A stretch of 64,000 bases of DNA from Bacteroidota bacterium (GCA_016124755.1 WGNA01000010.1:62001-126000); one strand, 5' to 3'. Positions 17,552 through 52,107 are shown, counted from the first letter of the stretch. Numbers and translations are program-made. The notes: generated from the sequence alone by a model not told the origin.

Positions 17552-17559
17552 TACTTTTG
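17552..17559 (+). promoter_or_regulatory. Bacteroidota -7 element (TACTTTTG) for giant surface protein gene
   Basis: Matches TAnnTTTG 10-19 nt before the candidate TTG starts (17570/17579). Confidence 0.4.
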
Positions 17560-17569
17560 AGCAAGCCAC

Positions 17570-20500
17570 TTGTCAATTTTGAAACCAATTACCAAACTGA
17601 AAGGATTCGTTCCGATTTTTTTGTGCGGAATTACTTTTCTGCTCATTGGAAATTCTTTAGCCAAAGCTCAAAAACCAGTTAACGACAGTTGCTCAAAGGC
17701 AATCATCATAAACCTTGGAAACGGAGGTTTCGGAAGAGGTTTGTTTATCAGTGATTCTGTAAGCATCGACAGCGCAACTATTCAAACCGGTGAGTATTTC
17801 CACTCTTCACTCGTTTCAGCGGGGAATGATAAAAAGAGTGTCTGGTATCGGTTTTATATCCCATCCCGACGAGGAGTTAACATAGAATTAAAGCAACACG
17901 CAAATGCAATAGCAACCAAGGATTGCGGATTTACAACGTACAAGAGCGAATCGTGTTTGCCAACTTCAACCATGGCAACGGCTTCAAAAATTACAACACT
18001 CAACCAATTCGGCAGTTCCTTTAATCCTTGTATGGATCCGGGTTGGTATATGGTTCAGGTAAGTGCTAAAAGCCGGGCGGCAGGAAAAATTTATCTCGAA
18101 ATCACTACGAGTTATCCGTATGAATATTCTGCGGTTGTTAATGCCAAGTACGATGTAGCGGATAGTGCTTATCGCTTTGGAAATACCATTGTTGGTTTTG
18201 GCGGAGATAACTCCAAATATGTCGACTTCGAATTGGGATGTTACACAATTGATGATTCAAGCGAATTCTATGCGGATTTAGGTGCAAATTATCTTGCGTT
18301 TAATCAGAGTGCCTGGTTCACATTCCAGGCTAATAAAAATGCAGACAACTCTCAAATCGCACTTCGTCCAATAACCAATTGTGTTCGAAACGACTCTTTT
18401 GCCTATCGCCTTTATAAAGGAGATTGCCGGTCAACCGCAAGTGTGATTCTTCTGGATTCCGCATTCTCCGACTGGAATTCCGGGTCAACCTGTTCCGGCA
18501 ATTGCAGCGATGTTGTTTTTGATTATAAATGTCGTTTTGATTCCGGAGAATTTTATTCGATTCAATTTCTGTTTCATGAGGATCAGGTGAATACCATGAG
18601 ACTTACCTTGTCTGATCAAACCGGAAGATTCGACAGCGGATATCATCAACCGAAGATTGGTCACTCAAATGAAATCGGAGTTGTTCGGGGAAATGTTATC
18701 TACAATACCAGTTTTACCTGCAACTCCTACATATCAGACAATGTTTGCGGAAATGCCAACGCATCTCCAATCTCACTCGGGAATTTTAAATACAACCTGA
18801 GTCAATGGGTGTCTTTTGACCTGGATCAGCAGTCGGCTCTTACCATCAATTTTGCTAATTACATTAACAATTATAAACGTTACGATCTTTTAGCCTGGAG
18901 ACTTTTCAAAGACACCATTACATCCAATTGTTCGGATGTTGACACGATGAATATTATTGCTTCGGGTGTGGGTACATACGGAAGTTATGCGTATAGCCTG
19001 AAATGTCTGGAGCCCGGGAAATACAGTATACAGTTATTAGGTTCAGACAGCCTCCGGGATTACAGTAACTGGAAGTGTTCGGGAACAATGCACCTTGGCG
19101 GAGATTATAGACTTACTCTCACACAAAGTCAATTACCGGTTTCAAACCGATTTTCATTAGCAACAACTACATCTGTTGATTCGGTTAATAATTACAGCAC
19201 ATTAATCAAGAATGGTTATGTGACGGCCCAATATGATACTGTGTCGTGTAACGATGCTTTGTTACCCGAAGACAGATGTGAACCCTTATTTCACAAAGCC
19301 ATGTACCGAACCTTTGTGGTGGGAGACGCAGACAAAGATGGCAGGGCAGACAGCGGGTTAGTTTACATAACCAATCTCCTTCAAGGGTATGTAGGTTATC
19401 CGTATTATAACTACCACGCAAATCACCGTATTTATAAAGGAGATGCGAAAGCCCTGAGAGCTGCTCAATCGGGAAGTGCTTACCCAGACACCCTTTTTGG
19501 TTTAACACCTTACAGCGAGTGTATTCCTAATAGTGCTTATCAGATGGGTGTTTGTGTAGAACCGGGAATTTATACGCTCGTTTCCACGTTTGATTCAATT
19601 GCCATAACTCTTACCGAACGGCCGAATGTCTATTTCTACAGTAGTCACACAAAACACAATACCTATGCAACCGCAGAATTTATTGATTCGATTTCCGGTG
19701 TGGGTTCATGGTCCGGAGAGCGGGATACAATCAGTTGCTCTGTAAATCCGGATACAATTGATGGTAATTATTGTGGAAGACGAAATACGTATCACGTTTT
19801 TTATCTCGATACTACTTGTGTTTTAACAGCCTCAATCGACTACGGAACTTATGCTTACGGAGGAAGAAGGTTTTCACTTTACTCTGGTGATATACGCAAC
19901 GGAAAATCAGGATTAAAGGTTGTTAACGACGGTTCCAATTGGAGTTGTTTGGCTACATATTCCCGAACTATTTCAGATTGTTTTCCCCTCTCTCCGGGTT
20001 TTTATACCGTGGTAATCAGCGAGGATCTTGATGTCGGGTACGACTCACTCAACCGTGAAAACAGTTCCGGGCCACGATTATATCAGTATCCGCATAAAGT
20101 CTATATCTCTACAAGAGCCTCAACCATTAACCCAAAGAAATATTACCGCCCGTCTTTGGCTGCCTATGCGGATAGTCTGGTAAACAACAACCAGCCTTTG
20201 AGTTTCGACACGAATTATTCTAGCATAAACGGAATGCAACTGAAACTCAAAAAATATCAGTTGCCTCGGGAGTATCTCGAATGTGATCTTGATACTCCGC
20301 TGAATTATTATCCCAAAAACCAATTGTGTGATACCGGAACAACCGACATTGTGTATTACACTTTCAATCTTGAAAAATACTCGTTTGTTAAAATCTGGGG
20401 AAATACAAGTGGCGGAACCTGGGATTCCAAACTCTATAATCTCGATGTTCGAACAGATTCAGCAGCACTGGATACTGCGGTGCCGGTCCAGAATTGTAAT

Positions 20501-23500
20501 TACAACCCCAATTACATGGAGTTCTGCGGTCTGCCGGCCGGAACGTACAGCTTGCTATATTTCTGCGAAAGATCAAAAGGGCAAACTGCTACGGTTTATC
20601 CGGTTGTGTACATCGATAGTATATTTAACTCCCGGTTCGACAGGGCTGCCAATGCCTATGATTTCGGTAGAATTCCGGGTGATGGAAATTATTACGATGG
20701 AAAAGTCGGTGATGTACATCCTTTAGACACAGCACTTCCACCAAGCCATGATTTTTTCACATGTAAAACAGGCGTAAGTGAAACAGACCCGACAAGCTCG
20801 AATTGTGGAGGCCACATAAACCCGAGAGTTTATTTAAACGATTCGAACATCGTGATGTTCCCGTATGATTCGGTGTATCAATATTATCACAATCAATCCT
20901 ATTACCCTTGGTCTTTCATCCGACGAAATCTTTGGTATTCCTTCGTAATCCGGGGAAGGGGAAATGTGACCGTTGATTTAAAGGGCTTAACAGCTTCCGG
21001 TTTACAAAATACTCCCGGTCTTACGTTCCGGTATTCTATTTACGAAAGTGATGAAGATGGGAGTCTTTCTATGGTTGACCTCAAAAGCATGGGAAAGATT
21101 GATTCAACTCTTACCAGCGGTTTGACCTATATCGCCAACGACTATTATTACTGTTATTACACGTCACCACTTTCAATCACTTTTCCAATTTCCGCTTGTG
21201 AGTCGGTGCGGGACCGACGCTATTATGTGTTGGTGGATTTGGATGGTTATAACTACTCATCGAGTCCCGCAATTAACTCTAATGTCTGGCTGGAAATTAA
21301 ATACGACAGCGCTTATCTGCCGGATACCAGGTTCGATTATTATTCTACGGCCAATAAGGTTAATGGTCTGAACGACGTGAATCTTTTGCAGAATCCGGGT
21401 TTTGAAAACAGCAACTTCTGGACATCCGCAAAAGGAAACTGGTATCTTAATCAGAACCAGACAACCGGATTAAAAGGAAATCACGCCTGGGCTTACTCGT
21501 ATTACACGTGGCGAAACGATACGGTGGAAATCTATCAGGATGTGGACATGACGCAGTATGCTTCACAGATTGTAGCCGGAACCGCTACTCTTTCATTCTC
21601 CGGATATCTCAAGTCCAAAAACGAATCTACTCCGGATGATGGCCGAATAGTAGTGGAATACCGTAATGCCTCCGGAACGGTTTTGTCGACCTATACTTCT
21701 TCGTGGTACGGGAATTCTTCTGCCTGGACTCAGGTTGCTCACTCGAAAACGATACCTGTCGGAACCAAAACGGTTCGGGTGCGATTACAAGCCAGAAACA
21801 ACGGAGTTAATTATTATTCCGACGTTTATTTTGATGAAATGGATTTTCGGGTTTCTGTTCCGAATTCAACCGTTCACACAACACTAAAAAGCAATGTTCT
21901 GTACAGAGGAGATCTTACCTACTTCGCAGGATCAACCATAGACACAACAGATATTTATCATTCGCCCGGGAATAGTTATTCGTGTTACACCAAAGATGTC
22001 GGAGGAACTGTATGGTATAAAGTGGAAGTCGATTCTGTCGGCTACATGTTTTATAATTATGTGTATCACTACTTCAGCAGTGGTAAGGATTACGAAGGTG
22101 TAACTTACAACTCTTATCTGATGCGGGTTTATCGTTCTGATAAAGACGGTGATTCTTTGGGAGGACTTACGTATATGCCGCCCATTTCCACTTCTTCTCA
22201 ATTCAACAGTCTTATGGGAAGTGGCGGATATTACATCTGTGTGCAACCGGGAACCTACTATATTCAATTAAACAAGTGTAATCAATATGCCTGTAGTGAT
22301 TACATCTATCCTCAGATCGCCTTTGATTTTCACACCGGAGACTTCTGCAATAATGCCGTGCCTTTGTACCTTGATACACTGGAATCTCAATCCGACAGGT
22401 TGCTCGTTAACTGCCATACCATGGGAAACGATTTCGGTGAAGACGGAAGTGATCTGGGTTGTTTGTTCGGGCCGAACGGGTATAAATCAAGTTGGTTCGT
22501 GGTGCATTATACCGATACCACCAAGATTGACCTCGAATTTAAATTAGCAGAATACACAACGGCCAGTGCCAACGAAATCCGGTATCGAACCTATTACGGA
22601 AACTGCCAGAGTTTAACACCGGCTCCCTGCAATACAAACGCTCTTACCACCTTTACGCTGGATTGCCTTCGCGACGGAACGTACTATGTTCAAATTGTAA
22701 CTCCCGAAAATGCAACGGGCGAATTAGAGATGACAGTCGAGGCAAAAGAGAATCACGATTCAACCTGTTTCCCGGTCGATATTTTTCAGCCGAATGCCGC
22801 CTTTTATTATAACACCGCCTGTCCCGAAAATGTGGTGGAGTTTATCAATACCTCATCACGGGGAGATTCAATCCGGTACTTCTGGGATTTCGGTTACAAC
22901 GGTTGGACGGATACTGTTTTAAATCCGGTGGTTCCTTATCCGGCACTAAAAGCTGAGATCACCTATAATGTGAAGTTACGGGTCGTGAACATCGCACAAA
23001 ATAGCTCCGATTCGCTGATTCTTCCGGTGACAGTTCCGTTTGCGCCTTATCTGGATATTCTGAACAACGATACCGTTTTGTGTAAAGGAGACAGTGTTAC
23101 GCTAAATGCTGTTATCTCACACGGTAAAGGAATCTGGAGTACAGGAGATACATCAACATCGATTACTGTTTCCCGAACAGGAAAATATTTCTGGATGGTT
23201 CAGGATAAGAAGAACATTCTCGATAATCCGAGCTTCGAGAAAAATCCGGTTTCTACCAACTGGACGGTTGTAAGTGGAAACTGGCAACGTACCAGCAATT
23301 CGAGTTACGGAGTTCAGGACAGCAGTTATGTCGCGTACGTGGTGAATGCTTCCGGAGGAGTTTCGGAAATGTATCAGGATGTGGATGTGAGTCTGGATTC
23401 AATTGAAATTGATTCGGGAATTGCCAAAACTTCCCTAACCGGTTTTCTTCGGGGCTATCAGACTTATGGCGATGCGGCTCAGGTTACTTTAGAATATTTA

Positions 23501-26500
23501 GACAAAAAAGGAAACCTGCTGGCGATTTACCGAACCGATTATTGGTCGGAGGATTACTGGAACACCTTTACGCATTCCCGTACCACGCCGGTGGGAACCC
23601 GAACGCTTCGTGTGCGGGTCGAAGCCGATAAAATCAGTACGAACAACAACAACTGTTACGCGTTTATCGACGGACTTGTGCTGAAAATGCGCAGCGCCTG
23701 CGAGTATAAAGACAGTGTTTATGTGCAAGTGAATTTGTATCCGAAACTCGATTTACCAAGTGACACATTCTTCTGCAAGGGAGATTCATTGCTATTAAAT
23801 CCGGATGTGTATTACGACAGCCCTTATGTGGTGCAGGACTCGATGAATGCTAAGCTCACGGGAAGTCTGAAGAATAATGCTTCTCACTCGGCATCAAACG
23901 GATATGTGGAACTTACGTCGAATGCCTACAACCAAAACGGGCAAATCGAATGGACCGATTCCGATTTGAAAATCACCGACACGTTTACGGTTTCATTTGA
24001 TATGTATTCCGGCGGAGATGGAGGATATGCACTATGGCTTTATCTGTTCAACAGCTCAACACCAACCTCCGAAGATGTGAATGCCGGAGGTTACTCCGTG
24101 AATTTTGATGAACAGAGCAGCAATCAGCTTCAGTTTAATTGGAGTGGTTCCAGACGAAATACTACTTCTCCGGGTGTGGATATGGGAACCGGGAAATGGA
24201 TAAACATCCGGATTGAATATGCCAATCAAACCTTTAAAGTGTATTCCGGCAATATGCTGATTGCATCTTTTACCGACGCTACAACCCGAACTCAAACCGG
24301 ATATAAATTTGGGTTAGGAGCCCGAAACGGAGGATATTACAACATCTATCGGGTGAAGAATTTTCATATTTCTAAAAACAACCCATCGTTTGCAATTCTG
24401 TTGAAAAAGCCCAAAGTTGGCGGAACGTATTTGTGGTCTGATGGCACAACGAACGACAGCACCCGGTGGATCACTTCAACCCATAAACTTTCGCTGAAAT
24501 TCAGAGATGCTTTTGGTTGTGAAAGCAATACCGACTCGACACAAATTAATGTGGTGAACCAGTACGACAGTTTGTTCACTGCATCCGATAACATCTGTGT
24601 TCTGCTCGATACTTTTTATCTCACCAAACCCGTGAGCACAGGATATTTTTACGGGCATCAGGCGGTCGATAGCCAGGGAATGGTGTTGGTGGATTCGGCT
24701 TCTTTCGGTAGTAATACCATTTATTTTTCAGTGATCGACACGTTTGGTTGTATTGCCATTGACACCGGCTCCTTTATTATTGATTCGATTCCCGATTTGC
24801 AATTCACAGCAGCAGGCCCTTTTTGTAAAAATGATTCACCTTCAAAACTTCAGATCAATCACAGCAGCGGATATTTCTTTGGCGGAACATATATCGATTC
24901 AACCGGAATTTTTGATCCGGCGAAAACAACACAGCGACTCAATCGGGTGTATTATGCAACCTTTGATCAGGACTGTCGCGGCGTAGATTCTATCGATGTG
25001 ATTGTTGATAGTTTGCCGGTAATCACCATGCCGTCGTTAGGTGAATACTGCCTCAATTCCGGTTTGCAACAATTGCCTTTAGCGGATAACAATGGATTCT
25101 TTGAACCAACGCTTTATCTTGACTCAAGTGGTTTGTTCAATCCGGTAAAAGCGGGCGTTGGCGTTCATCGTACTTATTTCACTTTGGTGAACAGCAATGG
25201 ATGTTTTGTTACTGACTCGGCAGACGTTACCGTCGACAGTTTGCCAAATGCAGCCATAACACCAGCCGGTCCGTTCTGCAAAAATTCTGTGAGCCAGAAA
25301 CTTACCGGTTTGTACCACAACGGTGTTTTTCAAAAGGCAACCTACATTGACACTGCCGGGAATTTTAGTCCGGCTATAGCGGGTGTAGGTTCAAAAAAAG
25401 TATATCACACTGTAGTTGACAATCGGGGATGTTCGAACAAAGATTCTTTAGTGGTTCAGGTAAATGCGCTGCCAAATGCGGCGATCTCGTCTGCCGGTCC
25501 GTTCTGTTTCAACCGATCGAAACAATTGTTAATTCCCCGATTCAATAAAGGTGGTGTCTTTACGAAAAACACATACATCGATTCGATTGGTTGGTTTACG
25601 CCCCAAAAGGCGGGAACCGGAAGTCACAAGGTTTATTACACCTTCACCGATGCAAATGGTTGTTCGAATACCGATTCTATTACTGTTCAGGTTGATACCA
25701 TTCCGGATGCTTCCATCGCTCCGGTGGGCCCCTTGTGTTTGGGAGATACTTCGGTTCAATTGATAATTACCGGAAAACCGGGAGGTACATTCACCACAAC
25801 TTCATGGCTTGATACCAATGGAATTTTTACAGTGAAAACAGCCGGAACCGGTTCGCACAAAGTCTATTATTCGGTCACCGACGGTCAGCTTTGCAGCAAC
25901 AAAGATTCGATTACCATTAAGGTGAATCCGATTCCGGATGCTTCGATTACACCGGCCGGACCGTTCTGCGAAAATTCAGGGGTTCATACGATTGCTGCTA
26001 AAATCAATACCGGTGGATATTTTTCTACAACAGCTTTTATTGATTCAGCCGGCCATTTCAATCCGGCGGTATCATCTATCGGCAATCATAAAATTTTCTA
26101 TTCCTTCACCGACAGCAATAGTTGCTCGAATACAGATTCAACTATAGTTCACGTGGATTCCATTCCGGATGCGTCGATCATGGCGGCCGGACCATTTTGT
26201 GAAAACGGTGGAATTCAACTAATCTCACCGGCGATCAATTCCGGAGGATTCTTTACTAAAACTAACTTCCTTGATTCTTCGGGTTATTTCGATCCGGCTC
26301 ATTCGTCAACCGGCGATCATTCGATCTATTATTCATTTACCGATGGAAACGGATGTTCGAATACGGACTCAACAATTGTTCATGTGGATTCCATTCCGGA
26401 TGCTTCGATTACATCGGCGGGGCCTTTCTGTGAAAACGGTGGAATTCAGTTAATCTCACCAACGATCAATTCCGGCGGCTTCTTTACTAAAACCGGTTTT

Positions 26501-29500
26501 ATTGATTCGAGTGGATATTTCGATCCGGCACAATCGTCAACCGGCGATCATTCGATCTATTATTCATTTACCGATGGAAACGGATGTTCGAATACGGACT
26601 CAACTGTTGTACATGTCGATTCGATTCCGGATGCTTCGATCGCAACGGCCGGGCCTTTCTGTCTGAATGCCGGTGTTCAAATCATTTTAGCGAAAACCAA
26701 CAGTGGCGGTTTCTTTACTAAAACTATCTTCATTGATTCGACCGGACACTTTGATCCGGTTCAATCATCGATCGGTGATCATCCGATCTACTATTCTTTT
26801 ACCGATGGAAACGGTTGCTCGAATACAGATTCAATTACGATTCATGTGGATTCCATTCCGGACGCATCGATTACACCGGCCGGCCCATTTTGTGAAAATG
26901 GTGGTGTTCAGTTAATCTCTCCCGCGATTAATTCCGGAGGTTTCTTTACTAAAACCGGTTTTATTGATTCCGCAGGTCATTTCGATCCAGCCCAATCTTC
27001 AACCGGCGATCATCGGATCTATTATTCTTTCATGGATGGCAACGGATGCTCGAATACAGACTCAACCATAATTCATGTGGATTCCATTCCAGATGCTTCG
27101 ATTACATCGGCGGGGCCTTTCTGTGAAAACGGTGGAATTCAGTTAATCTCACCGGTGATTAATTCCGGCGGCTTCTTTACTAAAACCGGTTTTATTGATT
27201 CGAGTGGATATTTCGATCCGGCAAAATCATCAACCGACGATCATAGAATCTACTATTCATTTACGGATGGGAGCGGATGTTCCAATACAGATTCTACGAT
27301 TGTTCATGTCGATTCGATTCCGGATGCTTCGATAGCATCAGCCGGGCCTTTCTGCATGAATGCTGGTGTGCAAATCATTTTAGCCAAAACCAATAGTGGA
27401 GGTTACTTTACTAAAACCGGTTTCATTGATTCGAGCGGATATTTCGATCCGGTTCAATCATCGATCGGTGATCACCTGATCTACTATTCATTTACGGATG
27501 GAAACGGTTGCTCGAATACGGATTCAACTATTATTCATGTGGATTCCATTCCGGATGCCTCGATCACGGCGGCCGGCCCATTTTGTGAAAATGGTGGTGT
27601 TCAGTTAATCTCTCCGGCGATTAATTCGGGTGGATTCTTTGCTAAAACCAACTTCATAGATTCAGCAGGATATTTCGATCCGGCACAATCGTCAACCGGC
27701 GATCATCCGATCTATTATTCATTTACCGATGGAAACGGATGCTCGAATACGGACTCAACCATTATTCATGTGGATTCCATTCCGGATGCTTCGATTACAT
27801 CGGCGGGGCCTTTCTGTGAGAATGGCAGAGTTCAGTTAATCTCGCCGGCGATTAATTCCGGAGGTTTCTTTACTAAAACCGGTTTTATTGATTCCGCAGG
27901 TCATTTCGATCCAGCCCAATCATCAACTGGCAATCATCGGATCTACTATTCTTTTACCGATGGAAATGGTTGTTCGAATACAGATTCAACTGTTGTACAT
28001 GTCGATTCGATTCCGGATGCTTCGATCGCATTAGCCGGGCCTTTCTGCATGAATGCTGGTGTGCAAATCATTTTAGCCAAAACCAATAGTGGAGGTTACT
28101 TTACTAAAACCGGTTTCATTGATTCGAGCGGACACTTTGATCCGGTTCAATCGTCAACCGGTGATCATCCGATCTACTATTCATTTACGGATGGAAACGG
28201 TTGTTCGAATACCGATTCTGCAATCGTTCATGTCGATTCATTGCCGGACGTTACAATTCAACCCGCCGGACCTTTCTGTTTGAACGACACCATTTCTGCC
28301 ATCAAACCAAATCATTCCGGAGGAACCTTCATCGTAACAAATTATATTGATGTAACTGGGAAATTTAATCCGCTCAAAGCCGGAACCGGAATTTCATTAG
28401 TTCAATATCAAAGAACAGATGGCAACGGATGTTCGGATACAGGTTCGCTCACAATAACAGTTGACACCTTGCCCAATGCGTCGATTACTCCGGCCGGGCC
28501 CTTCTGTGAAAACGCATCGGTTCAGAACCTTTCGGCTCAGAAAAATACCGGAACATATAGAGCCCTTAGTTACGTAGATACAGCCGGACACTTTGTACCA
28601 TCGTTCGCAGGTTCCGGTGATCATAAAGTGTATCATAGCTTTACCGACGCAAGAGGTTGTCGTAATACCGATTCTACAATCATTCATGTGGATACGGTTC
28701 CGGATGCATCGATTACTCCGGCCGGTCCCTTTTGCGCGAATGCCGGAATTAAACAAATGTCTGGTTCTACGAATCCGGGAGGAACATTTAAATCAGATAT
28801 TTACATTGATGCTTCCGGGAAGTTCGATCCGCTTAAAGCGACATCCGGATTAAACAAAATCTATTACACATATACGAATTCAAAAGGTTGTTCCGATACT
28901 GATTCAACTTCGGTTCAGGTGGATTCGATCCCGGATGCTTCCATAATTCCGGCCGGGCCGTTTTGCGAAAATTCAGGTCCGCAAAAACTTAAAGCGCGCA
29001 CCCACACTTCTGGAAGCTTTACTATTACTCCATACCTAAAAGCCAATGGCGATTTTGATCCGGCGATAGCAGGACAGGGAGTGCACCGGATTTATTATTC
29101 ACTTTCCGATTCAAAAGGTTGTGCGAATACCGATTCTATCATAATTGAAATCACGGCACCACCCGATGCTTCGCTACCGTCTTATGGTCCGTATTGCGCA
29201 AATGATTCGTCGGAAAAACTAATCGCCGTAAATCCGGGTGGAACTTTTAGTGGTGGAAATTACATCACTTCAAACGGTGTCTTTAACCCGGGGAAAGCGA
29301 ACATAACCGACAACACAGTTCTATATACATTAAGCGATACCAGCAATTGTTTCGACACCAAATCGATTGTGATTCAGGTGAACGATTATCCGCATAATTC
29401 AATTTATATAGATCCGGATGAAGGTTGTGAGCCGTTGGAAATTACTTTCTCAACCGAACCGGTGGATACCATCATTTGGAAATTGGCGGTGAACACCTTC

Positions 29501-30145: not shown

Positions 30146-30201
30146 TCCGGGAATAGCGATCATCAAACAGTGATGTATCGCATTTTTATCAGAACTACCC
30201 G

Positions 30202-31920
30202 ATGCCATTTTCCAGTATTTTGCGGGTCATGAGGTGGTTGATTCTCATAGTTCCGGTGGTTCTGGTTTTTGGGTGTAAAAATCCTAAAAGTGAGAAAGGA
30301 AATTCTGCGGAACGGATCTTCAATGAGGATTTGATTTTTAATCCGGCGATGGATGCTAAACGGGATAGCGCATGGAGATTTCTTGCGAGAGGTCAAATGG
30401 ATTCGGCTATCATGTTTGCTCAGGAGGAGATGCAGGAAGCAGAAAGCAAAAAGGCTCCGCCGGAAGTAATCATCAACAACTACTCACATTTTGCGGAACT
30501 CCTTTTTAATATCAATGCGTATGATTTAGGGGAAGAGTACACTATCAAAGCTCAGAGTGTTTATTCAACCTATTTTAAGGATCAGCCTTCCTGGACATAC
30601 CACACTTTCGCCAGTCAGCAGGCACTTTTCGATCTCGCAAAAAAGAACTACGACGAGGCTATTAATCATTACCACCAGTCGATCGAAAGACTGAAACCTC
30701 TCAACAAGGATTTATTTGTTGCGAGCATGATGAACAATATCGGAGTGGTGTATCTGGAACAGGATAATCTGGATTCCGCAAAAGCCTATTTTCAGAAAGC
30801 AAGACTGTACTACATGGATCACAAACTGCCTTTCGATGGGTTGTTTTTCAGCATTAATAACAATCTGGCAGACCTTTCTTATCAGCTTGGGAATTATCAT
30901 GATTCATACAACCTTTACGATTCCAATTATCAACTGGCGAGGATGACTTTGGGAAGTTTTGTTCATGCGCCAAGAAGAATTGTGACTTCCAACATCGGAA
31001 GAGCTAAAAATGATCTGGAACTCAACAAAGCCGATAGTGCCCGGGCTCACGTTGCTCTTGCAGAAGCGTATCTGGATTCTGTCGATTACAGAAAGCGTCT
31101 CGAATACAGGGAAGAGATTCTGGAATTGAAGGGACGATTAGCGGTTCAAAGATTAGATATTTCGGATTACAAGAAATTCAATCTTTTTAGAATGCAGCTT
31201 CGGGATTCAATCAATGAAATCAAACTTTCGGGTTTGGAACTCGCGAATCAAAAGGTAGCGGAGTTACAAATTCAGGCAGCACAACTTCAGCTTGCGGCAG
31301 GAAGGCAAGTGCTCAGGTTCAACCGGTTGCTGGGAATCAGTATCGTGTCCATCATTGTGATGATTGCTATCTTCATTGTGATGGTAATAAGAAGAAGGAA
31401 TAAGGCTCTGCAGGTTCAGAGACAACTCGCCATTGTAGAGTTAGAAAACAAAGAACTTCAGGAAGAAAAGCTGCGGTTGGAGCTGAGCAATAAGATGAGT
31501 GATCTGAATGAATTATCTGCACACGCGGCCATGCTGAAAAAGTTCACACAACAAACAAAGGATCAGCTCAAAGACCTTTGGAAATTTGATAAGGATGAGC
31601 AAAAAACGAAACTTCGCGAACTCTCATCATCGCTGAATCAGAACGATAGTCAGATGAAAGTGAATTCCCTTATTCAGGAAAATCTTCACGACCTCAACAC
31701 CGCATTTTTTGTTCGTTTGGATGAAATTTCGAACAACCAGCTCACCAAAAAAGAAAAGGAGTTGTGCGCACTTTTCCGGCTCATGTTGTCGAATGATCAG
31801 ATTGCCGATCTGCGAAATACCAGTATTAATGCAGTTTGGGTCGCACGACATCGTATCAAAAACAAACTGAATCTGGGTAAAGAAGACAGTCTTTCCGATT
31901 TTCTCCGGAAGCTGGAATGA
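30202..31920 (+). CDS. TPR - transmembrane - coiled-coil - LuxR-type HTH signalling protein
   Basis: Lipobox-like VFGCKNPKSE; TPR repeats (MNNIGVVYLEQDNLDSAKAYFQKA); TM LLGISIVSIIVMIAIFIVMVI; C-term LTKKEKELCALFRLMLSNDQIADLRNTSINAVWVARHRIKNKLNL (GerE/LuxR-like). Confidence 0.85.
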   Translation: MPFSSILRVMRWLILIVPVVLVFGCKNPKSEKGNSAERIFNEDLIFNPAMDAKRDSAWRFLARGQMDSAIMFAQEEMQEAESKKAPPEVIINNYSHFAELLFNINAYDLGEEYTIKAQSVYSTYFKDQPSWTYHTFASQQALFDLAKKNYDEAINHYHQSIERLKPLNKDLFVASMMNNIGVVYLEQDNLDSAKAYFQKARLYYMDHKLPFDGLFFSINNNLADLSYQLGNYHDSYNLYDSNYQLARMTLGSFVHAPRRIVTSNIGRAKNDLELNKADSARAHVALAEAYLDSVDYRKRLEYREEILELKGRLAVQRLDISDYKKFNLFRMQLRDSINEIKLSGLELANQKVAELQIQAAQLQLAAGRQVLRFNRLLGISIVSIIVMIAIFIVMVIRRRNKALQVQRQLAIVELENKELQEEKLRLELSNKMSDLNELSAHAAMLKKFTQQTKDQLKDLWKFDKDEQKTKLRELSSSLNQNDSQMKVNSLIQENLHDLNTAFFVRLDEISNNQLTKKEKELCALFRLMLSNDQIADLRNTSINAVWVARHRIKNKLNLGKEDSLSDFLRKLE

Positions 31921-32245
31921 GACATTTAATTTCTGAACTCAGAATAGAAATTCATAGGAACGTTCATCCCGAATGCAAAAAATTTGGTGGCAGATCGCCC
32001 CGGATTTTAGAACAATTCACCCGTTAATGCAGATCAAAAAAACGCAAGTAAGAGTCGAAATCGGCCTCATTTTTTTCAATCAAAGAGTGTGAAAAATGAA
32101 GTGTAAAATGCTTTTTATCAAAAGCTTGTGATTTCTGACAGTTTTTGTAAGGTGGATTTTTTGGAAAAATATTGCCGGTCGGCTTCCATTTGCACTGCCT
32201 TCTGATAAGGCACCAAATAATTACCCACGCATAAAATCTCAATCA

Positions 32246-35200
32246 ATGAAAAGGTCAATCTTTTTCCTGTCCTTGGTATGCTCTTTTTTTTCTGCTTTAG
32301 CCCAAAATAATGTGGGCATCGGAACGAATCAACCCGACCCAAGCGCAGCACTCGAAATTAAATCCGGTAACCAGGGAATCCTTATTCCCCGAACCGACAG
32401 CACCAGCCGAAAATCGATTTCCGATCCGGCCGACGGACTCATGGTGTATGACACCACGACCAGTTCTTTCTGGTATTTCAACGGTGATGAGTGGCAGAAC
32501 ATGAAAAAAGCGGTGGCAACTGCAATTGCCGACGACGGTTTATCTTTAGGTGATACCTGCTATTTTTCGCCATTTGATGATGCTTCGTTTGAAGATGCGG
32601 ATATAATAGATTCTAAGGCTCATGACAATTGGCAGTCATTCACGGCTTTGTCCACCGGATATCTGGTTCGGTTTGATGCCTATATCCTGCCAAATTCTTC
32701 TCCGTTCGATGGGGGAGTTTTCAGGGTTTACGCGGGTACCGGCACTTCCGGAACATTGCTTTATGAAAGTTATATTGATTCATTGGGAGAAGGCTGGCTT
32801 GAATTTGAGATTCCACATGAGACCGTTTTGGTAGAAAAAGACTCGATTTATACATTTTTTCTTAATGACACGGTGAACAGTTGCGTATGGATTTATAATG
32901 AATTCGGGAACTTATATGCCGGTGGTGAGGCTAGTTCAGGTGTAAACTCAGACTATCTTTTTCGAACCACTGTCAACCGGTGTGTCAACAAAAGTGTGAT
33001 TACCACCGATATCGATAACCAGTCGGCGACTCTGCAATTAATCGACACCATCTTTTTTAAAGACAATACGTGGCAGATTTCTGCTGAAACCGATGATCAG
33101 TTACTCAGCCTCACTTCCGATAGCCTGACCATTGAGGACGGAAATACAATTGATCTGTCGGCATACAAACAGAGTTTGAATCTGAGTGGCGATACCCTCA
33201 CATTGAGCAACGGGAATTCGGTGGTATTTGATGATAAGGTTAATGATGCGGACTACGATCCAACCAATGAGATTCAGACATTAACTTTAAATGGAGACAC
33301 TTTGATTCTCAGCAGCGGGAACAGTGTAGTTTTCGATGATAAAGTTAACGACGCCGACAGCAGTGCTACCAACGAATTACAGTTTCTGAGTTTAAGCAAC
33401 GACACCTTGTATCTGAGCAGCGGAAATTACGTGGTTCTGAGTTCTGTTAATACCGACAATCAGACGCTCAGTTTCAGCAACGACACGCTTTCGTTGAGTA
33501 ACGGAAACAATGTTGTTTTAACCTCCATTAACACCGATAACCAAACGCTGAGTTTCAGTAACGATACGCTTTCATTGAGCAATGGAAATACGGTTGTTTT
33601 AACCTCCATTAACTCCGATAATCAAACCCTCAGCATCAGTAATGATTCATTAGTAATCGACGATGGAAATGCAGTTGACCTCTCAGCATATTTGGATAAT
33701 ACGGATGCCCAGTTATTAGAATTTAGTAATGATTCACTTTCCATTGCGAACGGAAATTCGGTTGACCTTTCAGGCTATTTGGATAATACCGATTCTCAGA
33801 TGTTGAGTCTGAGTAATGATTCATTGTCCATTGAAAACGGGAATACAATTGACTTGTCGGCGTACCTCGATAACACGGACGCTCAGGTTTTCAGCTTAGA
33901 GGAAGATACGCTTACGATTTCCGGCGGGAACTCAATTGATTTAAGCAGCATCGATAATCAGCAACTCAGTGTTTCAAACGACACACTGCGAATCGCCAAT
34001 GGTAATTCCGTGAAGCTAAGTCACTCTACCGATCTTGGAATTCTGCTTTCTGATGAGTGTTATAAAATAGAATACATGGATATTTTCTTTGAGAAAAACA
34101 CCAGCGTTACTTTAGATTCGACAACATCAGGCTGGCAATCTTTTACTGCGGAAGCATCTTGTTATTTAACCAAGGTTATCCCGTACATCGATTCAAGCGC
34201 ACTTTATCACGCTGGAAATTTCAAGATATACGAAGGGGACGGAACTTCAGGCCAATTATTATACAGCAGTGCTCAGGGATCATTGGGGCCGGGTTGGGAT
34301 ACGATTTATGTTGCCGATGGAGCAGTATATGTTGATTCCGGCAGCCATTACACCATTTATCTCGAGGACACGATCGGGCAATTTATCTGGAAATCACGCC
34401 GGGCAAACGGTGGATATACCGGTGGAGGAAGCGATGAGCATTTTAATCTGGGCGACCGCTTTTTTCGCATAAAAGGCGGGTCGTGCGACTTTCGGCAATT
34501 GGTTGAGCCATACTCGGGTTCCGGAACCACATCTCTTCATTATGTGGATACCATCTTTTACAGTAATGGAGAATATTCGACCGGCGAGTCTGTGCTCTCA
34601 ATCAGCAATGACTCATTGTCTATAACTCATGGGAATACGGTTGATCTTTCGACTTATCTCGACAATACAGATGAGCAAACCCTAAGCATCAGCAGCGATA
34701 GCCTCTCCATAACCGGGGGAAATACGGTAGATCTTTCGGATTATCTCGATAACACAGATGAACAAACCTTAAGCATCAGCAACGACAGCCTCTCCATAAC
34801 CGGCGGAAATGCGGTTGATCTTTCAGAATATCTCGATAACCAAACCTTGAGTATCACCAATGATAGTCTCAGTATTGTTGACGGAAACTCAGTTGACCTT
34901 TCGGATTATTTAGACAATACGGATAATCAAACCTTAAGTATCAGCAACGACAGCCTTTTGATTTCCGGCGGGAATTCGGTTGATCTTTCGGCTTATCTGG
35001 ATAACACCGACGATCAAAACCTTTCTTTATCTAATGACTCTTTGTCGATTGACAATGGAAGCACACTCGATCTGAGTTCCATTACACCCACAACTTTAGC
35101 AGATGATGATGGCAATACAACTATTGAAGTGGAAGCATCAGCAAACGAAGACAAAATTCATTTTAAACTCGGAGGTACAGAATATTACACCTTTGAGTCC

Positions 35201-36235
35201 ACCGGAATGCGGTTTATCAATCCGAATGGAAACCTTTCTATTGGTTCTAATAATTTGTTGAGCATCACCTCCGGAAATACGAATGTCGGACTTGGAGACT
35301 ATGCGCTTCGTTACGATTCATCCGGAAGTTCCAACATTGCGATCGGTATAGCAGCTATGCAAGGGAATCGTTCAGGCTCAAACAATGTCGCGATCGGTTA
35401 CCGCTCAGGTTTCGTTAACTCGACCGGATCGGGGAATGTGTTTCTGGGTTACAGATCCGGATTTACAGAAACCGGTTCGAACAAACTCTATATCGAAAAC
35501 TCGGACGTTAGTTCGACCCAGGCTTTAATTTATGGTGAATTTGACAACGATTTTCTGGCAATAAATGGCGATTTACGGATCAACGACGGCACTCAACAAA
35601 GTGGTTACGTTTTTACGAGTGATGCGGATGGTGATGGTAGCTGGCAGGCTCCGGTTGATGATCAGAAGATCGATAAATTTAATCTGAACGGAACCACGTT
35701 AGAAATATCACTTGAAGATGATGGGGAAGCAGATAAAACGGTAGATCTCTCCAATCTGGGCGTTCCAGTGGGATCTGTGCAGATGTATGCAGGAGATACA
35801 TCGATGCTTCCAACCGGCTGGCTTGTGTGCAACGGAAATACTTTTAGTTCATCGACCTACCCAACCTTATATACGGTTCTCGGGAACAGTAACGTCTTAC
35901 CCAATATGAGTGGCAGGTTTCCATTAGGCGTTGGCAGCAGCGGATCTACGTATTCGTCTACTCATACATTAGGAGATACGGCCGGTGATGAAAAGCATAA
36001 ACTTACCATTGACGAAATGCCAAGTCACACACACGACGCAGGAAGCCTGTCAACACAGTTTAACTACCTGAGCGGCAATTCCGGGGCGGGATCTTCAACT
36101 CTGAAGGACGGAAGCGACAGTCAACTTTACAACAGTAGTGCGCTCAGTGGCAGTACTTCCAGTAAAGGCAATGACTACGCACACAGTATAATGCCACCCT
36201 ACTTTACAGTGTATTTCATTATTAAAGCTAAATAA
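32246..36235 (+). CDS. Tail-fibre-like secreted protein: beta-repeats, duplicated domain, YadA-head-like segment, phage tail-collar domain
   Basis: Signal peptide; NNVGIGTNQPDPSAALEIKSGNQGILIPR; 17 SNDSLSIxxGNxVDLSxYLDNTD repeats; GSSNIAIGIAAMQGNRSGSNNVAIGYRSGF; PVGSVQMYAGDTSMLPTGWLVCNGNTFSSSTYPTLYTVLG...MSGRFPLGVG...THTHDAG-like tail collar. Confidence 0.85.
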   Translation: MKRSIFFLSLVCSFFSALAQNNVGIGTNQPDPSAALEIKSGNQGILIPRTDSTSRKSISDPADGLMVYDTTTSSFWYFNGDEWQNMKKAVATAIADDGLSLGDTCYFSPFDDASFEDADIIDSKAHDNWQSFTALSTGYLVRFDAYILPNSSPFDGGVFRVYAGTGTSGTLLYESYIDSLGEGWLEFEIPHETVLVEKDSIYTFFLNDTVNSCVWIYNEFGNLYAGGEASSGVNSDYLFRTTVNRCVNKSVITTDIDNQSATLQLIDTIFFKDNTWQISAETDDQLLSLTSDSLTIEDGNTIDLSAYKQSLNLSGDTLTLSNGNSVVFDDKVNDADYDPTNEIQTLTLNGDTLILSSGNSVVFDDKVNDADSSATNELQFLSLSNDTLYLSSGNYVVLSSVNTDNQTLSFSNDTLSLSNGNNVVLTSINTDNQTLSFSNDTLSLSNGNTVVLTSINSDNQTLSISNDSLVIDDGNAVDLSAYLDNTDAQLLEFSNDSLSIANGNSVDLSGYLDNTDSQMLSLSNDSLSIENGNTIDLSAYLDNTDAQVFSLEEDTLTISGGNSIDLSSIDNQQLSVSNDTLRIANGNSVKLSHSTDLGILLSDECYKIEYMDIFFEKNTSVTLDSTTSGWQSFTAEASCYLTKVIPYIDSSALYHAGNFKIYEGDGTSGQLLYSSAQGSLGPGWDTIYVADGAVYVDSGSHYTIYLEDTIGQFIWKSRRANGGYTGGGSDEHFNLGDRFFRIKGGSCDFRQLVEPYSGSGTTSLHYVDTIFYSNGEYSTGESVLSISNDSLSITHGNTVDLSTYLDNTDEQTLSISSDSLSITGGNTVDLSDYLDNTDEQTLSISNDSLSITGGNAVDLSEYLDNQTLSITNDSLSIVDGNSVDLSDYLDNTDNQTLSISNDSLLISGGNSVDLSAYLDNTDDQNLSLSNDSLSIDNGSTLDLSSITPTTLADDDGNTTIEVEASANEDKIHFKLGGTEYYTFESTGMRFINPNGNLSIGSNNLLSITSGNTNVGLGDYALRYDSSGSSNIAIGIAAMQGNRSGSNNVAIGYRSGFVNSTGSGNVFLGYRSGFTETGSNKLYIENSDVSSTQALIYGEFDNDFLAINGDLRINDGTQQSGYVFTSDADGDGSWQAPVDDQKIDKFNLNGTTLEISLEDDGEADKTVDLSNLGVPVGSVQMYAGDTSMLPTGWLVCNGNTFSSSTYPTLYTVLGNSNVLPNMSGRFPLGVGSSGSTYSSTHTLGDTAGDEKHKLTIDEMPSHTHDAGSLSTQFNYLSGNSGAGSSTLKDGSDSQLYNSSALSGSTSSKGNDYAHSIMPPYFTVYFIIKAK
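32558..32990 (+). repeat. Copy 1 of a duplicated about 145-aa domain in the tail-fibre-like protein
   Basis: CYFSPFDDASFEDADIIDSKAHDNWQSFTALSTGYLVRFDAYI...GGVFRVYAGTGTSGTLLYES...DYLFRTTVNRC. Confidence 0.75.
33093..34025 (+). repeat. Beta-repeat block 1 (about 11 units of about 26-35 aa)
   Basis: QTLSFSNDTLSLSNGNNVVLTSINTDN / QLLEFSNDSLSIANGNSVDLSGYLDNTDS type units. Confidence 0.88.
34058..34486 (+). repeat. Copy 2 of the duplicated about 145-aa domain
   Basis: CYKIEYMDIFFEKNTSVTLDSTTSGWQSFTAEASCYLTKVIPYI...GNFKIYEGDGTSGQLLYSS...DRFFRIKGGSC. Confidence 0.75.
34586..35095 (+). repeat. Beta-repeat block 2 (6 units, mostly 29 aa)
   Basis: QTLSISNDSLSITGGNTVDLSDYLDNTDE type units. Confidence 0.88.
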
Positions 36236-36326
36236 ACTACAACTCCATTAACAGACTTTGGTATGCACTTCCGTGACTTGTGAATAATGGAGATTTTATG
36301 CGATAACGGAAGGTTAACCATGTAAG

Positions 36327-36358
36327 GCAGTCCCGGTAAAAAGGCCGGGGCTGCTTTT
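36327..36358 (+). terminator. Terminator-like hairpin in the 5' region of the 36375 gene
   Basis: gcagtcccgg-taaaaagg-ccggggctgc (10-bp stem, one G:U) then TTTT; ends 16 nt before ATG 36375. Confidence 0.65.
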
Positions 36359-36374
36359 AAAAAAGCTTTAGATT

Positions 36375-37916
36375 ATGAACAAACTTAAAACGTACCTCAC
36401 TAAAATTACCAAACCGGCAACCACAGGTTCATTGGTAAAACAACTAATACATGTAGTGGCAGTTTTAATTAACATATTAATAATTTCCACTTTAATAAAT
36501 CGCGCTTCGGCTCAGGTAATAATAAATGATGCCGAATTTTACGTAGCACCGGGCGCCGTTGTTCAGATTAATTCTGATTTTAATGCCGTTCAAAATTCCA
36601 CAAATCAACCGACCCTATATCTCAGCGACAGTTTAATTATCACCGGAGATCTGGAATTGGATTCGGGAATTGTGCTTTCCGGAGACGGGTGGATTGTACT
36701 AAAGGGTTCGGAAACTCAAATGATTAATTCGAATTCGGTTGATATACAAAAACTAAAAATTAATAATTCCAATGGAGCCGGCTTGCAAAACGAATTACAG
36801 ATTCCGGATTCTTTACACTTCATTACAGGGGTGCTGAGCATAAACGGTTACAACCTCACCATCGGAACTTTTTCCAGTGATTCGGGTGTGATCATCGGTT
36901 CTTCTGATGTCGGATATATTCAAACTTCAGACACCGGTGAGTTGCGCAGATATGTGTCCGGCGGAACATTTTTTCCGGTCGGAAACAGTAGTTATAATCC
37001 GGCAATGATTTATCTCAATAATACAGATTCTATTGGTGTTCGGGTTGAAGACGAAGTTTATGAAAACTATTTTCCGGCATCCGGAAAGCAAACGGCAAAC
37101 GCTTTGAACCGGGCATGGTTTGTATCCAAAGACAGTAGTTCGAACACAATGGAAATGATCGTTTACTGGGGCCAGACCGATGAGTTGAATTCGTTTGACC
37201 GCACCAACTGTATTTTAAATTATTACAACGATTCGGCAGGTCTCTGGCCGGTGTCGGGCTCTTTTTCTTCGGCGGTTTCCACCGGGAGTTTATACAGTCA
37301 AAGCAATAATAATTTTCATTCGTTCAATACCTATTTTGGTGTCGGGAGTGAGAACAGTCCGCTGCCGGTGGAACTTTTAAATTTTGAAGTAAAATGGATT
37401 ACCACCGGAGAACAAGCTCAGCTAAACTGGTCGACAGCCAGCGAAAGCAATTGTGATTTTTTCGAAATTCAAAGAAGTACGGATGCAGGTCAATGGCGAA
37501 TTGTTGGAAGAAAACAAGGTCAGGGGAATAGTTCTGCCATTGTACATTATCAATACGTTGATCAGCTTCCGGGAGATTCAAAATCCGGAATTTATTATTA
37601 CCGGTTAAAACAATTCGATTTTAACGGAGACTTTTCGTACAGTCCGATCCGCATGTTGCATTGGGAAAGCGATAATAAGAATTTGATTTCTGTTTTTCCG
37701 AATCCGGCATCCAACGAAATAAATATCCGGCTATCGGAACAAAACGTAATTTATAATGCGCGTATAACAGACGGTGCCGGGAAATTAATTCAACAAAAAA
37801 CGATTAAAGAATTTGCGACATTCAATGTTAATGAACTTTCCAGAGGTATTTATTATTTACAGATGGAATCGGATGCGGGAGAACTGAAAGTTTTTAAAAT
37901 TATGGTGGTGCATTAA
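36375..37916 (+). CDS. T9SS type A sorting domain-containing secreted protein
   Basis: Signal-anchor-like N-terminus; beta-rich body; PLPVELLNFEVKW...LNWSTASESN module; C-term VFPNPASNEINIRLSEQN...ELSRGIYYLQM...FKIMVVH. Confidence 0.88.
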   Translation: MNKLKTYLTKITKPATTGSLVKQLIHVVAVLINILIISTLINRASAQVIINDAEFYVAPGAVVQINSDFNAVQNSTNQPTLYLSDSLIITGDLELDSGIVLSGDGWIVLKGSETQMINSNSVDIQKLKINNSNGAGLQNELQIPDSLHFITGVLSINGYNLTIGTFSSDSGVIIGSSDVGYIQTSDTGELRRYVSGGTFFPVGNSSYNPAMIYLNNTDSIGVRVEDEVYENYFPASGKQTANALNRAWFVSKDSSSNTMEMIVYWGQTDELNSFDRTNCILNYYNDSAGLWPVSGSFSSAVSTGSLYSQSNNNFHSFNTYFGVGSENSPLPVELLNFEVKWITTGEQAQLNWSTASESNCDFFEIQRSTDAGQWRIVGRKQGQGNSSAIVHYQYVDQLPGDSKSGIYYYRLKQFDFNGDFSYSPIRMLHWESDNKNLISVFPNPASNEINIRLSEQNVIYNARITDGAGKLIQQKTIKEFATFNVNELSRGIYYLQMESDAGELKVFKIMVVH

Positions 37917-47376: not shown

Positions 47377-50300
47377 CTATTGTTTCACTACTCTGAACTG
47401 CTCAACCTTGTACAGTCCGGCAATTCTTATGATGTACACACCATTGGTTAAATGGCTGAGATCTACTTTTTGAAAGGTTTGATCGGTTAGTTCCGTGTTA
47501 TACATCACCTTTCCGGTAAGATCGGTTACTTCCATCGTCAACGTTTCTTTTGAATTTTCGGGAAGATTCACGGTCATAGTGCCATTAAACGGATTCGGGA
47601 AAACCTGAATATTCGATTTTACATCGGACAATGGATTTTGAAAATCCACCATTCTTAGCGGACTATATTCTGCTTCCTCATTAAAATCAAATTGATGTAA
47701 CCGGTAGAAAACCACCATCTCATTGTTCGCAATTGTCTGATCAAGAAACCGGTATTCGTGAATCACAGTGCTGGTGCCATTTCCTTCAACCCGTGCGATG
47801 GGTAGAAAGTGGACACCGTCGTAGCTGCGTTCAATGATAAAGTGGCTGTTATCAATTTCGCTGGCCGTAACCCAATTGAGTTGTGCCTGATGATTGGACT
47901 CGGCGGTAACCGTAAACTTTACAAGTTCAACAGGGAGAGGAGCCGGACCTGATCCGCCTCCACCACCAGAACCTCCGCCACCTCCTGAGAAGCTGGATAC
48001 TTCGTATTCACCATAATGATCAAAACCAAATCCGCCATGGACGCCGGCATTCCAGGTAGTTGTACCGGGTGTTGCACCATGCGTTATAATTATTCCGGTA
48101 ATGCTGCTGGTATGCGGTCGGTCGAACGGATCACCACTGGTGAGTTTGTACATCGTAAGCTGGGTGTCTGAAGTTATCGTACTGGTATTTCCACTTCCTC
48201 CCATCGTGGTTGAATTTCCGAGTGCACTCACCAAATCGTTGTACTCATCATCCGTGAAATAATAACGCACGCCAACATTTCCGGAAGAAGGTTGCGTAGT
48301 AGCATCAACGTGCCAACTGCGGTCAATCATTGAATACCCTTTGTTTCCGGTACTGATAATTCCACCATCACTTCCGGTCCAGGTATAAACCGTACTGGAT
48401 CCTGTTTGGAGTTGGAGGTCACCTGGGTAAACCACAGCACCGGAACTACCTATTTTTAAACTGAGCAATAGCGCCCCGGAATCACTGCAGTAGTGCGACC
48501 AGCCATCTGAATATGTAGAAACATACGATGCTGTTTCGGTAGTGTTGAGAGTGGTGAATAATGGATTCGTTGGATGGCAGGCAGTGCTGAAAATGTATGA
48601 TCCTCCAGCGTTTGATGTGCTGTTTAATCCGTTCGCATCGAAATAGTCATTTGCAGCACCTAAATGGATATAGTCTCCGGAAATGGCAACTGCCTGCCCA
48701 AAACCCATTGAATTTGCCCTTGATGACGCAACTATCTTTTGTGCCTGCGACCAGGTTCCGGAATTGTTGGTAAATATGTAGGCCGAGCCGGCATAAGACA
48801 CAGAATTTTGTCCGTTCGCATCTTCCGAGTCGTATGGAGATCCAACGATGGCATAGTCTCCGGAAATACTTACGGAAGTTCCAAAGTCGTCGCTAGTTCC
48901 CCGGTCTCCGGCCGTAATTTTTTGAACTTGCGACCAGGTTCCACTGTCGTTGTGGAATATGTAAGCTGATCCGGATCGATAAAGATAATTGGCATTACTG
49001 GTATCTTCATCGTCACCAAAAGCACCAACTACGGCATAATCATTCGATACAGCCAATGAATATCCGAAATAGTCATCGGTATTTCTATCGGAGGCGACTA
49101 TTTTTTGCGTTTGAGACCAGGTCCCGCTATTGTTGGTAAAGATGTACACTGATCCTGCGCTAGAAGCAGTATTGGATCCACTTGCATCTTCATCTTCATT
49201 ATAAGCTCCAACGAAGGCAAATGAATCTGAGATGGCAACGGCAAATCCAAAAAAGTCACCATCATTTCTATCGGAGGCAACAATCTTTTGTGTTTGAGAC
49301 CACGTGCCGCCATTATTGTGGAATATGTATGCTGATCCTGCGTTACTTTTCGTATTTGCTCCTGCAACATCTTCGTCTTCACGGTCAGCCCCAACTATTA
49401 CATAGTCACCCGAAATGGCAAGCCTGGCACCGAATTGATCAATGGTGGCCCGATCAGACGCCACAATCTTCTGAACCTGAGTCCAGGTTCCGTTGTTGTT
49501 GTAAAATATGTAGGCAGAGCCCGCACTATTCATATAATTCTGACCGCTGGCATCTTCGTCGTCTCCAGCTGAACCAACAACAACGTAATCTCCGGAGATG
49601 GCAACGGCATATCCAAACCGGTCGGTTCCTGCCCTGTCGGAAGCAACGATCTTTTGATAAAAGCTCCAAGTTCCGTTATCGTTGTGAAAAATATAAGCAG
49701 ATCCTGCGCTGGAAAGAGTATTCTGATCATTGGCATCTTCATCTTCCTCCGGTACCCCTACAACTGCAAAATCCCCTGAAATGGCCACACCTCTGCCGAA
49801 ATAGTCGTTGACATTTCTGTTGTTAGCAACCGCTTTGATAACTTGGTTCCAATATGTTCCTTTGGTATTAACAACTACAGCTTCGTACTCATAAGCCCCT
49901 ATGTCCGGTGACGAACCTCTGGAAGTTCCAAGTATGTCTGTGGTCGGCGTACCGCTTGTGGTTCCGGCGTCTAAAACGGATGATCCTATGAGTAAGCGAA
50001 AACCATCGTCCTCGGTCATCCAGATACCATCAGTTCCAACGGCACTGGTAGAATCCACAAACAACGATGCGTAGCTGTTGGAACTGAGATCTACGTAGGT
50101 TGCTGTGCTGGCATTATAAATCACACCTCCGGTTTGATCCGCTGCATTATTCGTGCTCCCAGAGTTGATGTAGAGTCTGAAATTGTCTGTACTTCCTCCG
50201 GTATTGCCGTAAAATAGGCAGTTTACCACCTTGGTGTCTCCGTTGTTATTAATATGTGCGAGGCAATTGGAATTAGTCGTGGAAGAATTGGCGATGAAGG

Positions 50301-51009: not shown

Positions 51010-51345
51010 TGTGATTTTTGATAGGTTTGAATTTTCACAATCAAAACCGGAGTAATCAGTTCATCACTGAGACAGTCACGAAACCTCGATGAAATTTTCC
51101 TGCATACCATTTTAGCCAGGAATGGAACTAATCAAGAAAAACTACCATTAACTATCTACTGCGCCTTTACTGAGAGACTTCAGTTTTGAAGTGCAATTCA
51201 ATCCTAAAACAAAGGATCTTAGGCATCCACATGGGGTAACCTGAATTGTGATGAATAACGTGGATTTGTTACGAACAACAGCATTGGATGATGTTTAAGC
51301 GTATCACATTTGAAGGTTCAGGTAAATTCGGGTTGATCTTTACGA

Positions 51346-52053: not shown

Positions 52054-52107
52054 GTATAAAGCGATTATTTCTGTTCTTGATTTTGGTTTGAGTTTCGCCC
52101 AACAACA

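Follow-up and report, generated by a model that had tools for sequence, protein, structure and literature searches.

The T9SS surface proteins encoded by members of the Bacteroidota number from scores to hundreds, and to our knowledge little is understood of how individual proteins of this kind are switched on. A run of four consecutive plus-strand genes beginning at positions 17570, 30202, 32246 and 36375 of a Bacteroidota sequence, which combines a giant T9SS type-B protein, a regulator, a protein resembling phage tail fibres and a T9SS type-A protein, raises the question of whether such genes are controlled from within their own neighbourhood and which of the four belong together. An earlier note on this DNA had suggested that they could form a single regulated surface appendage or adhesion apparatus. 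The whole stretch analysed, hereafter the window, comprises 64,000 nucleotides of contig 6 of a genome (G000) of 4.05 Mb rated 100% complete. The reading preferred here, to which a probability of roughly 0.6 is assigned, is that the interval holds two separate things, a stand-alone giant adhesin and an accessory three-gene fibre module (30202-37916), in which regulator, fibre and partner represent a recurrent arrangement for a regulated surface fibre and the giant is an unrelated neighbour.

Methods

Loci around regulators composed of a TPR array, a membrane helix and an HTH (TPR-TM-HTH) were assembled from 16 homologues and, once a pattern had emerged there, from 40 more that were picked by HMM score alone before their neighbours had been seen. 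A neighbouring gene was called a surface gene when it was co-oriented and carried a T9SS signal or a fibre signature, and offsets within three genes of the regulator were considered. The direct repeats in the intergenic gaps were counted without an assumed sequence.

Gene content and transcription signals of the interval

The four open reading frames, P0001, P0002, P0003 and P0004, and the domains ascribed to them by the earlier note were all found (Table 1), and the flanking reading frames, read by eye, include no phage structural or replication gene beside the tail-collar protein, as that note had also held. The genome carries 150 type-A (PF18962) and 50 type-B (PF13585) domain hits, six of them in the window, so that finding genes of both types within 20 kb calls for no particular explanation.

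Table 1. Features of the interval, in positions of the window
Feature	Position	Strand	Remarks
Bacteroidota-type -7 box TACTTTTG before the giant	17552..17559	+	region has two TAnnTTTG matches, including this
P0001, giant T9SS type-B adhesin, 4191 aa	17570..30145	+	CHU_C/TIGR04131; judged outside the module
Tandem array inside P0001, 231-bp unit (77-aa repeats)	26126..28248	+	TRF: 9.2 copies, 78% matches
Terminator-like hairpin, then ATTTTT, after the giant's stop	30156..30186	+	fold of gap, sequence
P0002, TPR - membrane helix - LuxR-type HTH regulator, 572 aa	30202..31920	+	
Regulator-fibre gap, 325 nt	31921..32245	+	no recognisable TGTAnnCC direct repeat
P0003, MAT-like chimeric fibre, 1329 aa	32246..36235	+	signal peptide, N-terminal module, stalk, beta-roll, tip
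Tip with homology to short tail fibres of phages	35750..36232	+	tblastn: 340 phage records; PDB 9nxk, 9cuy
Terminator-like GC-rich hairpin and T-run, gap between fibre and 36375 gene	36324..36358	+	14-pair stem in gap fold
P0004, T9SS type-A protein, 513 aa; probable fibre partner	36375..37916	+	sorting domain

The giant carries what appear to be the signals of a transcription unit of its own, namely a promoter-like box in front and a terminator-like hairpin behind. Its start codon is TTG at 17570 or TTG at 17579, and no good -33 partner was found for the -7 box. The exact promoter pattern TTTG-N18-20-TAnnTTTG has no match in the window, and a relaxed version matches once, on the opposite strand within the 36375 gene. 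As hairpins with a T-run lie after the giant and before the 36375 gene, a single transcript is disfavoured.

The giant adhesin as a separate unit

P0001 is identified as T9SS type-B cargo by matches over the cut-off to CHU_C (E 1.9e-16) and TIGR04131 (E 7e-10), and also contains a PKD domain. Homologues of its first 1800 residues, within proteins approximately 3000-4200 aa in length, occur in G002, G003, G009 (three copies), G010, G014, G015 and G018, and contig-truncated ones in G012, G020 and G051. The homologues are 37-61% identical to P0001 and show many invariant cysteines, glycines and aromatic residues in the alignment; the ectodomain forms a conserved family of its own. A structural model of residues 33-400 consists of beta-sandwich units (mean pLDDT 74), for which Foldseek listed collagen-binding and CUB-like domains, all with TM-scores below 0.35, and the ectodomain is therefore described simply as a beta-sandwich. 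Two shorter giant paralogues of 1608 and 1641 aa with type-B sorting domains are present elsewhere in the genome (G000:C33:46020 and G000:C36:25224).

The nine full homologues listed above have neighbourhoods in which the downstream side is covered, and in none of these does a regulator, a fibre or a 36375-like gene adjoin the giant; similarly, the class-wide neighbours of the regulator family include no giant homologue. Synteny of the four genes, which the earlier note had named as a check, is thus rejected with respect to the giant.

Architecture and relatives of the regulator

P0002 possesses a TPR array (TPR_12, E 1.4e-12), a hydrophobic N-terminal stretch containing a lipobox-like FGC, a single membrane helix near residues 376-396 and a C-terminal HTH, the combination that characterises the TPR-TM-HTH regulator family with its LuxR-type HTH; no histidine kinase domain was matched. 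The LuxR-type assignment, made earlier for this protein, is well founded for the family, 11 of the 17 proteins in the family alignment matching GerE/LuxR, and weak for P0002 alone, the HTH of which gives no GerE match when taken by itself (Sigma70_r4_2, E 0.07). Its recognition helix is atypical.

Full-length relatives of P0002 are absent from all 58 family and order relatives, and full-length homologues are found across the class at 20-28% identity. Within its own genome P0002 is by far the top match to the family model, the others being mostly TPR sensors that lack the HTH part. In the maximum-likelihood tree P0002 falls into a five-member clade (support 99/91) with the regulators of L112, L113, L114 and L120; P0002 shares 20-26% identity with its relatives, and as its branch is long, its exact position is less sure than the clade itself. 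Four of the five members have a fibre gene behind them, and the fibre label is clustered over the regulator tree (0 of 500 shuffles as low). No new members of the clade emerged from a phylum-wide search at E 1e-70 or from the order of G179.

The distribution of the regulator-fibre pair, judged from the genomes compared, appears to be patchy and accessory. The triple of regulator, fibre and T9SS gene in place is absent from every close genome, and the regulator is missing from eight of the nine genomes in the genus of L112. The closest pair, L112 and L114, belongs to different families, with regulators 44% and fibres 52% identical, and its regulator and fibre may possibly have been transferred horizontally as a unit.

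Gene order around the regulators across the class

In 26 of 55 loci the regulator was directly followed by a co-oriented gene of the T9SS or fibre type, as compared with 23 of 251 positions at the remaining offsets (p 5e-10), in counts that treat loci as independent while these span many families and yet share ancestry. The directly upstream gene, included in the latter figure, was of this type in 8/54 loci. The bias was retained in the validation set alone (16/39 downstream versus 14/182 elsewhere, p 1.2e-6). Fibre signatures were found seven times at the +1 position and never at another offset, PF18962 in 20/55 downstream and 9/53 upstream proteins, and Peptidase_S74 in four of the 55 proteins downstream and in no more than one upstream. 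By these criteria about half of the regulator family has no surface gene behind it. Members of the thiol-activated cytolysin family were also seen among the neighbours (2/55 downstream and 1/53 upstream; sets A4 and A3).

The order of regulator and then fibre recurs in other families (L112, L114, L117, L120, L144, L149 and L162). Thus, of the synteny proposed for the remaining genes, the order of regulator and fibre is recovered in distant lineages, and the close relatives offer no full-length P0002 with which to follow it.

A direct repeat in regulator-target gaps

Comparison of the intergenic regions of the closest loci revealed TGTAGCCC twice, 11 bp apart, an 11-bp direct repeat of TGTAnnCC with the consensus TGTAnnCCnnnTGTAnnCC. 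Repeats matching at 8 of 9 positions at an offset of exactly 11 occur in 18 of the 51 regulator-target gaps and in 12 of 261 other gaps, against a mean of 1.2 for shuffled sequences and 0-6 for other offsets. Under leave-one-out scoring, 18/50 regulator gaps and 3/261 others exceed 10.6 bits, a threshold that was derived from the control gaps themselves; among gaps outside the model building, 6/35 do so. Two of the three control gaps above the threshold touch T9SS genes (L121 and L138). These repeat sites precede T9SS genes that are not immediate neighbours of the regulator, so that the regulons may be wider than the adjacent gene.

All 18 sites are followed by a co-oriented gene, which is of the surface type in 14 of the 18 cases as against 12/32 for gaps without a site (p 0.008); in the non-seed loci alone the contrast is not significant (p 0.19). 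The distance from the site to the next start codon is -56 in L112, -124 in L114, -62 in L143, -107 in L137 and -129 in L140. The site often lies about 30 nt ahead of a promoter-like box; in L113, L114, L139 and L148 it is followed by a TAnnTTTG-like box at a distance of 29-32 nt, which would be appropriate for an activator.

The gap between regulator and fibre in the window gives a PWM score of -0.5, its best repeat is no better than those in shuffled sequences, and no site clearly above chance was detected elsewhere in the window. Because this gap carries no site and the recognition helix of P0002 is atypical, direct control by the regulator is inferred at this locus.

The chimeric fibre

P0003 matches Collar (E 5.7e-12) and Gp10_C (E 9.5e-9) and has no T9SS signal of its own. 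Its N-terminal module is common to secreted proteins of many relatives and is followed by stalk repeats of 81-87 bp and by a beta-roll in which NVAIG repeats can be recognised by eye. The tip is about 33% identical to phage tail proteins, while related fibres elsewhere end in S74 domains or carry YadA_head repeats. A single-sequence AlphaFold model of the C-terminus was unusable (pLDDT 32).

The T9SS protein behind the fibre

P0004 is identified as T9SS type-A cargo by a match to Por_Secre_tail (E 1.2e-11, over the cut-off) and an N-terminal signal recognised by eye. In this family and order, fibre genes are often followed, 5-19 nt later, by a gene for a T9SS type-B protein whose N-terminal domain is distinctive; such pairs are found in the same genome on C1 and in G002, G009, G014, G017 and G054. 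The conserved pairs were recorded as L135 (G000:C1:42547-48167), L187, L188, L189, L192, L193 and L194. A protein with the partner-type N-terminal domain is also encoded behind regulator and fibre in L120, and in L114, where it is truncated by the end of the contig. A T9SS gene stands behind the fibre in seven of the nine cases with a co-oriented follower, against a background frequency of 11% in the loci assembled, and the seven represent fewer independent events because most of them are orthologues.

Comparison of P0004 with the family of fibre partners (A7) by hhalign gave a weak match (probability 20%, E 1e-3; 0.1-9% for three controls from the window), the alignment being collinear with the family. 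P0004 also contains an NRxW/DRxx motif; out of 109 T9SS proteins compared, the others that have it are all encoded beside fibres, and the motif was defined after these proteins had been seen. As the motif was written post hoc and the profile comparison is weak, P0004 is regarded as a probable fibre partner. It differs from the other pairs in the 139-nt gap and the strong hairpin that separate it from the fibre.

Proposed mechanism and alternative explanations

In the mechanism proposed for the three genes, the TPR domain of P0002 would sense something in the periplasm and pass the signal through the one membrane helix to the cytoplasmic LuxR-type HTH, which would then activate the next gene. 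The product would be a trimeric MAT-like fibre serving in adhesion, with a tip akin to the short tail fibres of phages, while the T9SS-exported partner would be carried to the cell surface, where it may serve as an anchor or a cap for the fibre.

The alternatives differ in how much of this arrangement they concede. It is unlikely, although it deserves serious consideration, that four unrelated genes have come together by chance in a genome rich in surface genes, with a regulator that does not act on the fibre; the 150 type-A and 50 type-B hits, the lack of an operator in the gap and the lack of synteny in close relatives would all agree with this. The pairing of regulators with fibres is, however, significant across the class, P0002 lies inside a fibre-linked clade, and the 36375 gene carries the motif found otherwise only next to fibres. 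The same clade membership argues against a regulator directed at some other target, such as the upstream giant or distant genes, as does the failure of any site elsewhere in the window to rise clearly above chance; such a target, which would account for the lack of a recognisable site in the gap before the fibre and has a parallel in the sites before other T9SS genes in L121 and L138, is judged improbable.

At the other extreme, the single apparatus of four genes envisaged by the earlier note has in its favour the co-orientation of the genes and the surface or regulatory nature of each, but its giant has homologues without the other three as neighbours, its own -7 box in front and a T-run hairpin behind, and no counterpart among the class-wide neighbours of the regulator; it is given hardly any credence. 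What survives of that proposal is the regulated surface fibre, which the comparison backs for the three genes from 30202 to 37916, and what falls is the four-gene appendage locus. Just as little credence is given to a phage origin of P0003, as a prophage remnant or as the fibre of a phage-tail-like injection particle. Its Collar/Gp10_C tip does resemble phage tail proteins; nevertheless, the reading frame is intact, the N-terminal module and stalk are common to chromosomal secreted fibres of relatives, and inspection of the 64-kb window by eye revealed no phage structural, tail, baseplate or replication genes. The prophage remnant was rejected on these grounds.

The most valuable result lies outside the interval, in the class-wide link between regulators and surface genes and its predicted operator. 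There is about an even chance that this link reflects an undescribed system spread over the Bacteroidia, in which membrane-anchored one-component TPR-HTH activators directly precede their own targets and act through TGTAnnCCnnnTGTAnnCC a short way upstream of the promoter, the window regulator being a divergent, fibre-linked member. The targets would be T9SS-exported or fibre-type surface genes, and the state of the respective protein in the periplasm is possibly what is sensed. If this is true, T9SS regulons could be predicted from sequence, by way of a regulator located beside its target and a DNA site that can be recognised, and they could be examined in cultivable strains. The open-access literature searched contained no relevant report of TPR and LuxR pairings with T9SS or tail-fibre genes, which is not proof of novelty.

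Comparison with known systems

Like the SprB-type adhesins, P0001 is giant, repetitive, secreted and terminated by CHU_C; it differs in its ectodomain, which forms a separate conserved family, and no PorP/SprF-like gene adjoining it was recognised by eye.

The MAT superfamily of Bdellovibrio bacteriovorus comprises long secreted fibres with a phage-tail-fibre-like body and C-terminal tips that vary and may or may not include S74, which are surface adhesins (PMC10769870). P0003 shares with them the signal peptide, the mosaic phage-tail-fibre-like body and, through Collar and Gp10_C, a tip of the variable phage-like or adhesive kind. However, P0003 gives no NCBIfam match up to E 0.1, the model of the conserved MAT domain that follows the signal peptide (NF053851) included, and the capping-loop motif VG..xxPxxxL has no match in it, as against 10, 8 and 24 matches in the fibres of L112, L114 and L144, respectively; a fibre on C20 of the same genome matches the N-terminal model weakly (E 7e-4). 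P0003 would thus work like a MAT protein and is yet not filed as one, because both the model and the motif are unmatched. It differs further in having a TPR-HTH regulator before it and a T9SS protein behind it. The range of phage-tail-like chimeric fibres employed by bacteria as surface adhesins would hereby gain one with a phage collar tip, and the T9SS partner may explain how the fibre is attached to the surface.

In FimS/FimR of Porphyromonas gingivalis, a periplasmic TPR sensor with a membrane helix controls fimbriae (PMC11053733), which sets a functional precedent for the sensing proposed for the TPR domain of P0002. P0002, in contrast, lacks the histidine kinase and unites sensor and HTH in one protein, so that no response regulator would be needed. 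On the minus strand of the window (47377-54186), a TPR histidine kinase (52108-54186) with a weak match to the FimS model and a LytTR regulator (51346-52053) directly precede a T9SS type-A gene (47377-51009).

Parallels also lie in the same genome. The operon on C1 encodes a fibre with the same N-terminal module as P0003, followed by a T9SS protein, and differs in its YadA_head and S74 fibre, its type-B partner, its gaps of 5-19 nt and the lack of a TPR-HTH regulator. On C20 (G000:C20:178001-190000), a TPR histidine kinase, a LuxR-type response regulator, an S74 fibre and a small T9SS type-A protein are encoded in the same orientation, and this locus is, to judge by its gene content, a two-component version of the regulator-fibre-T9SS arrangement.
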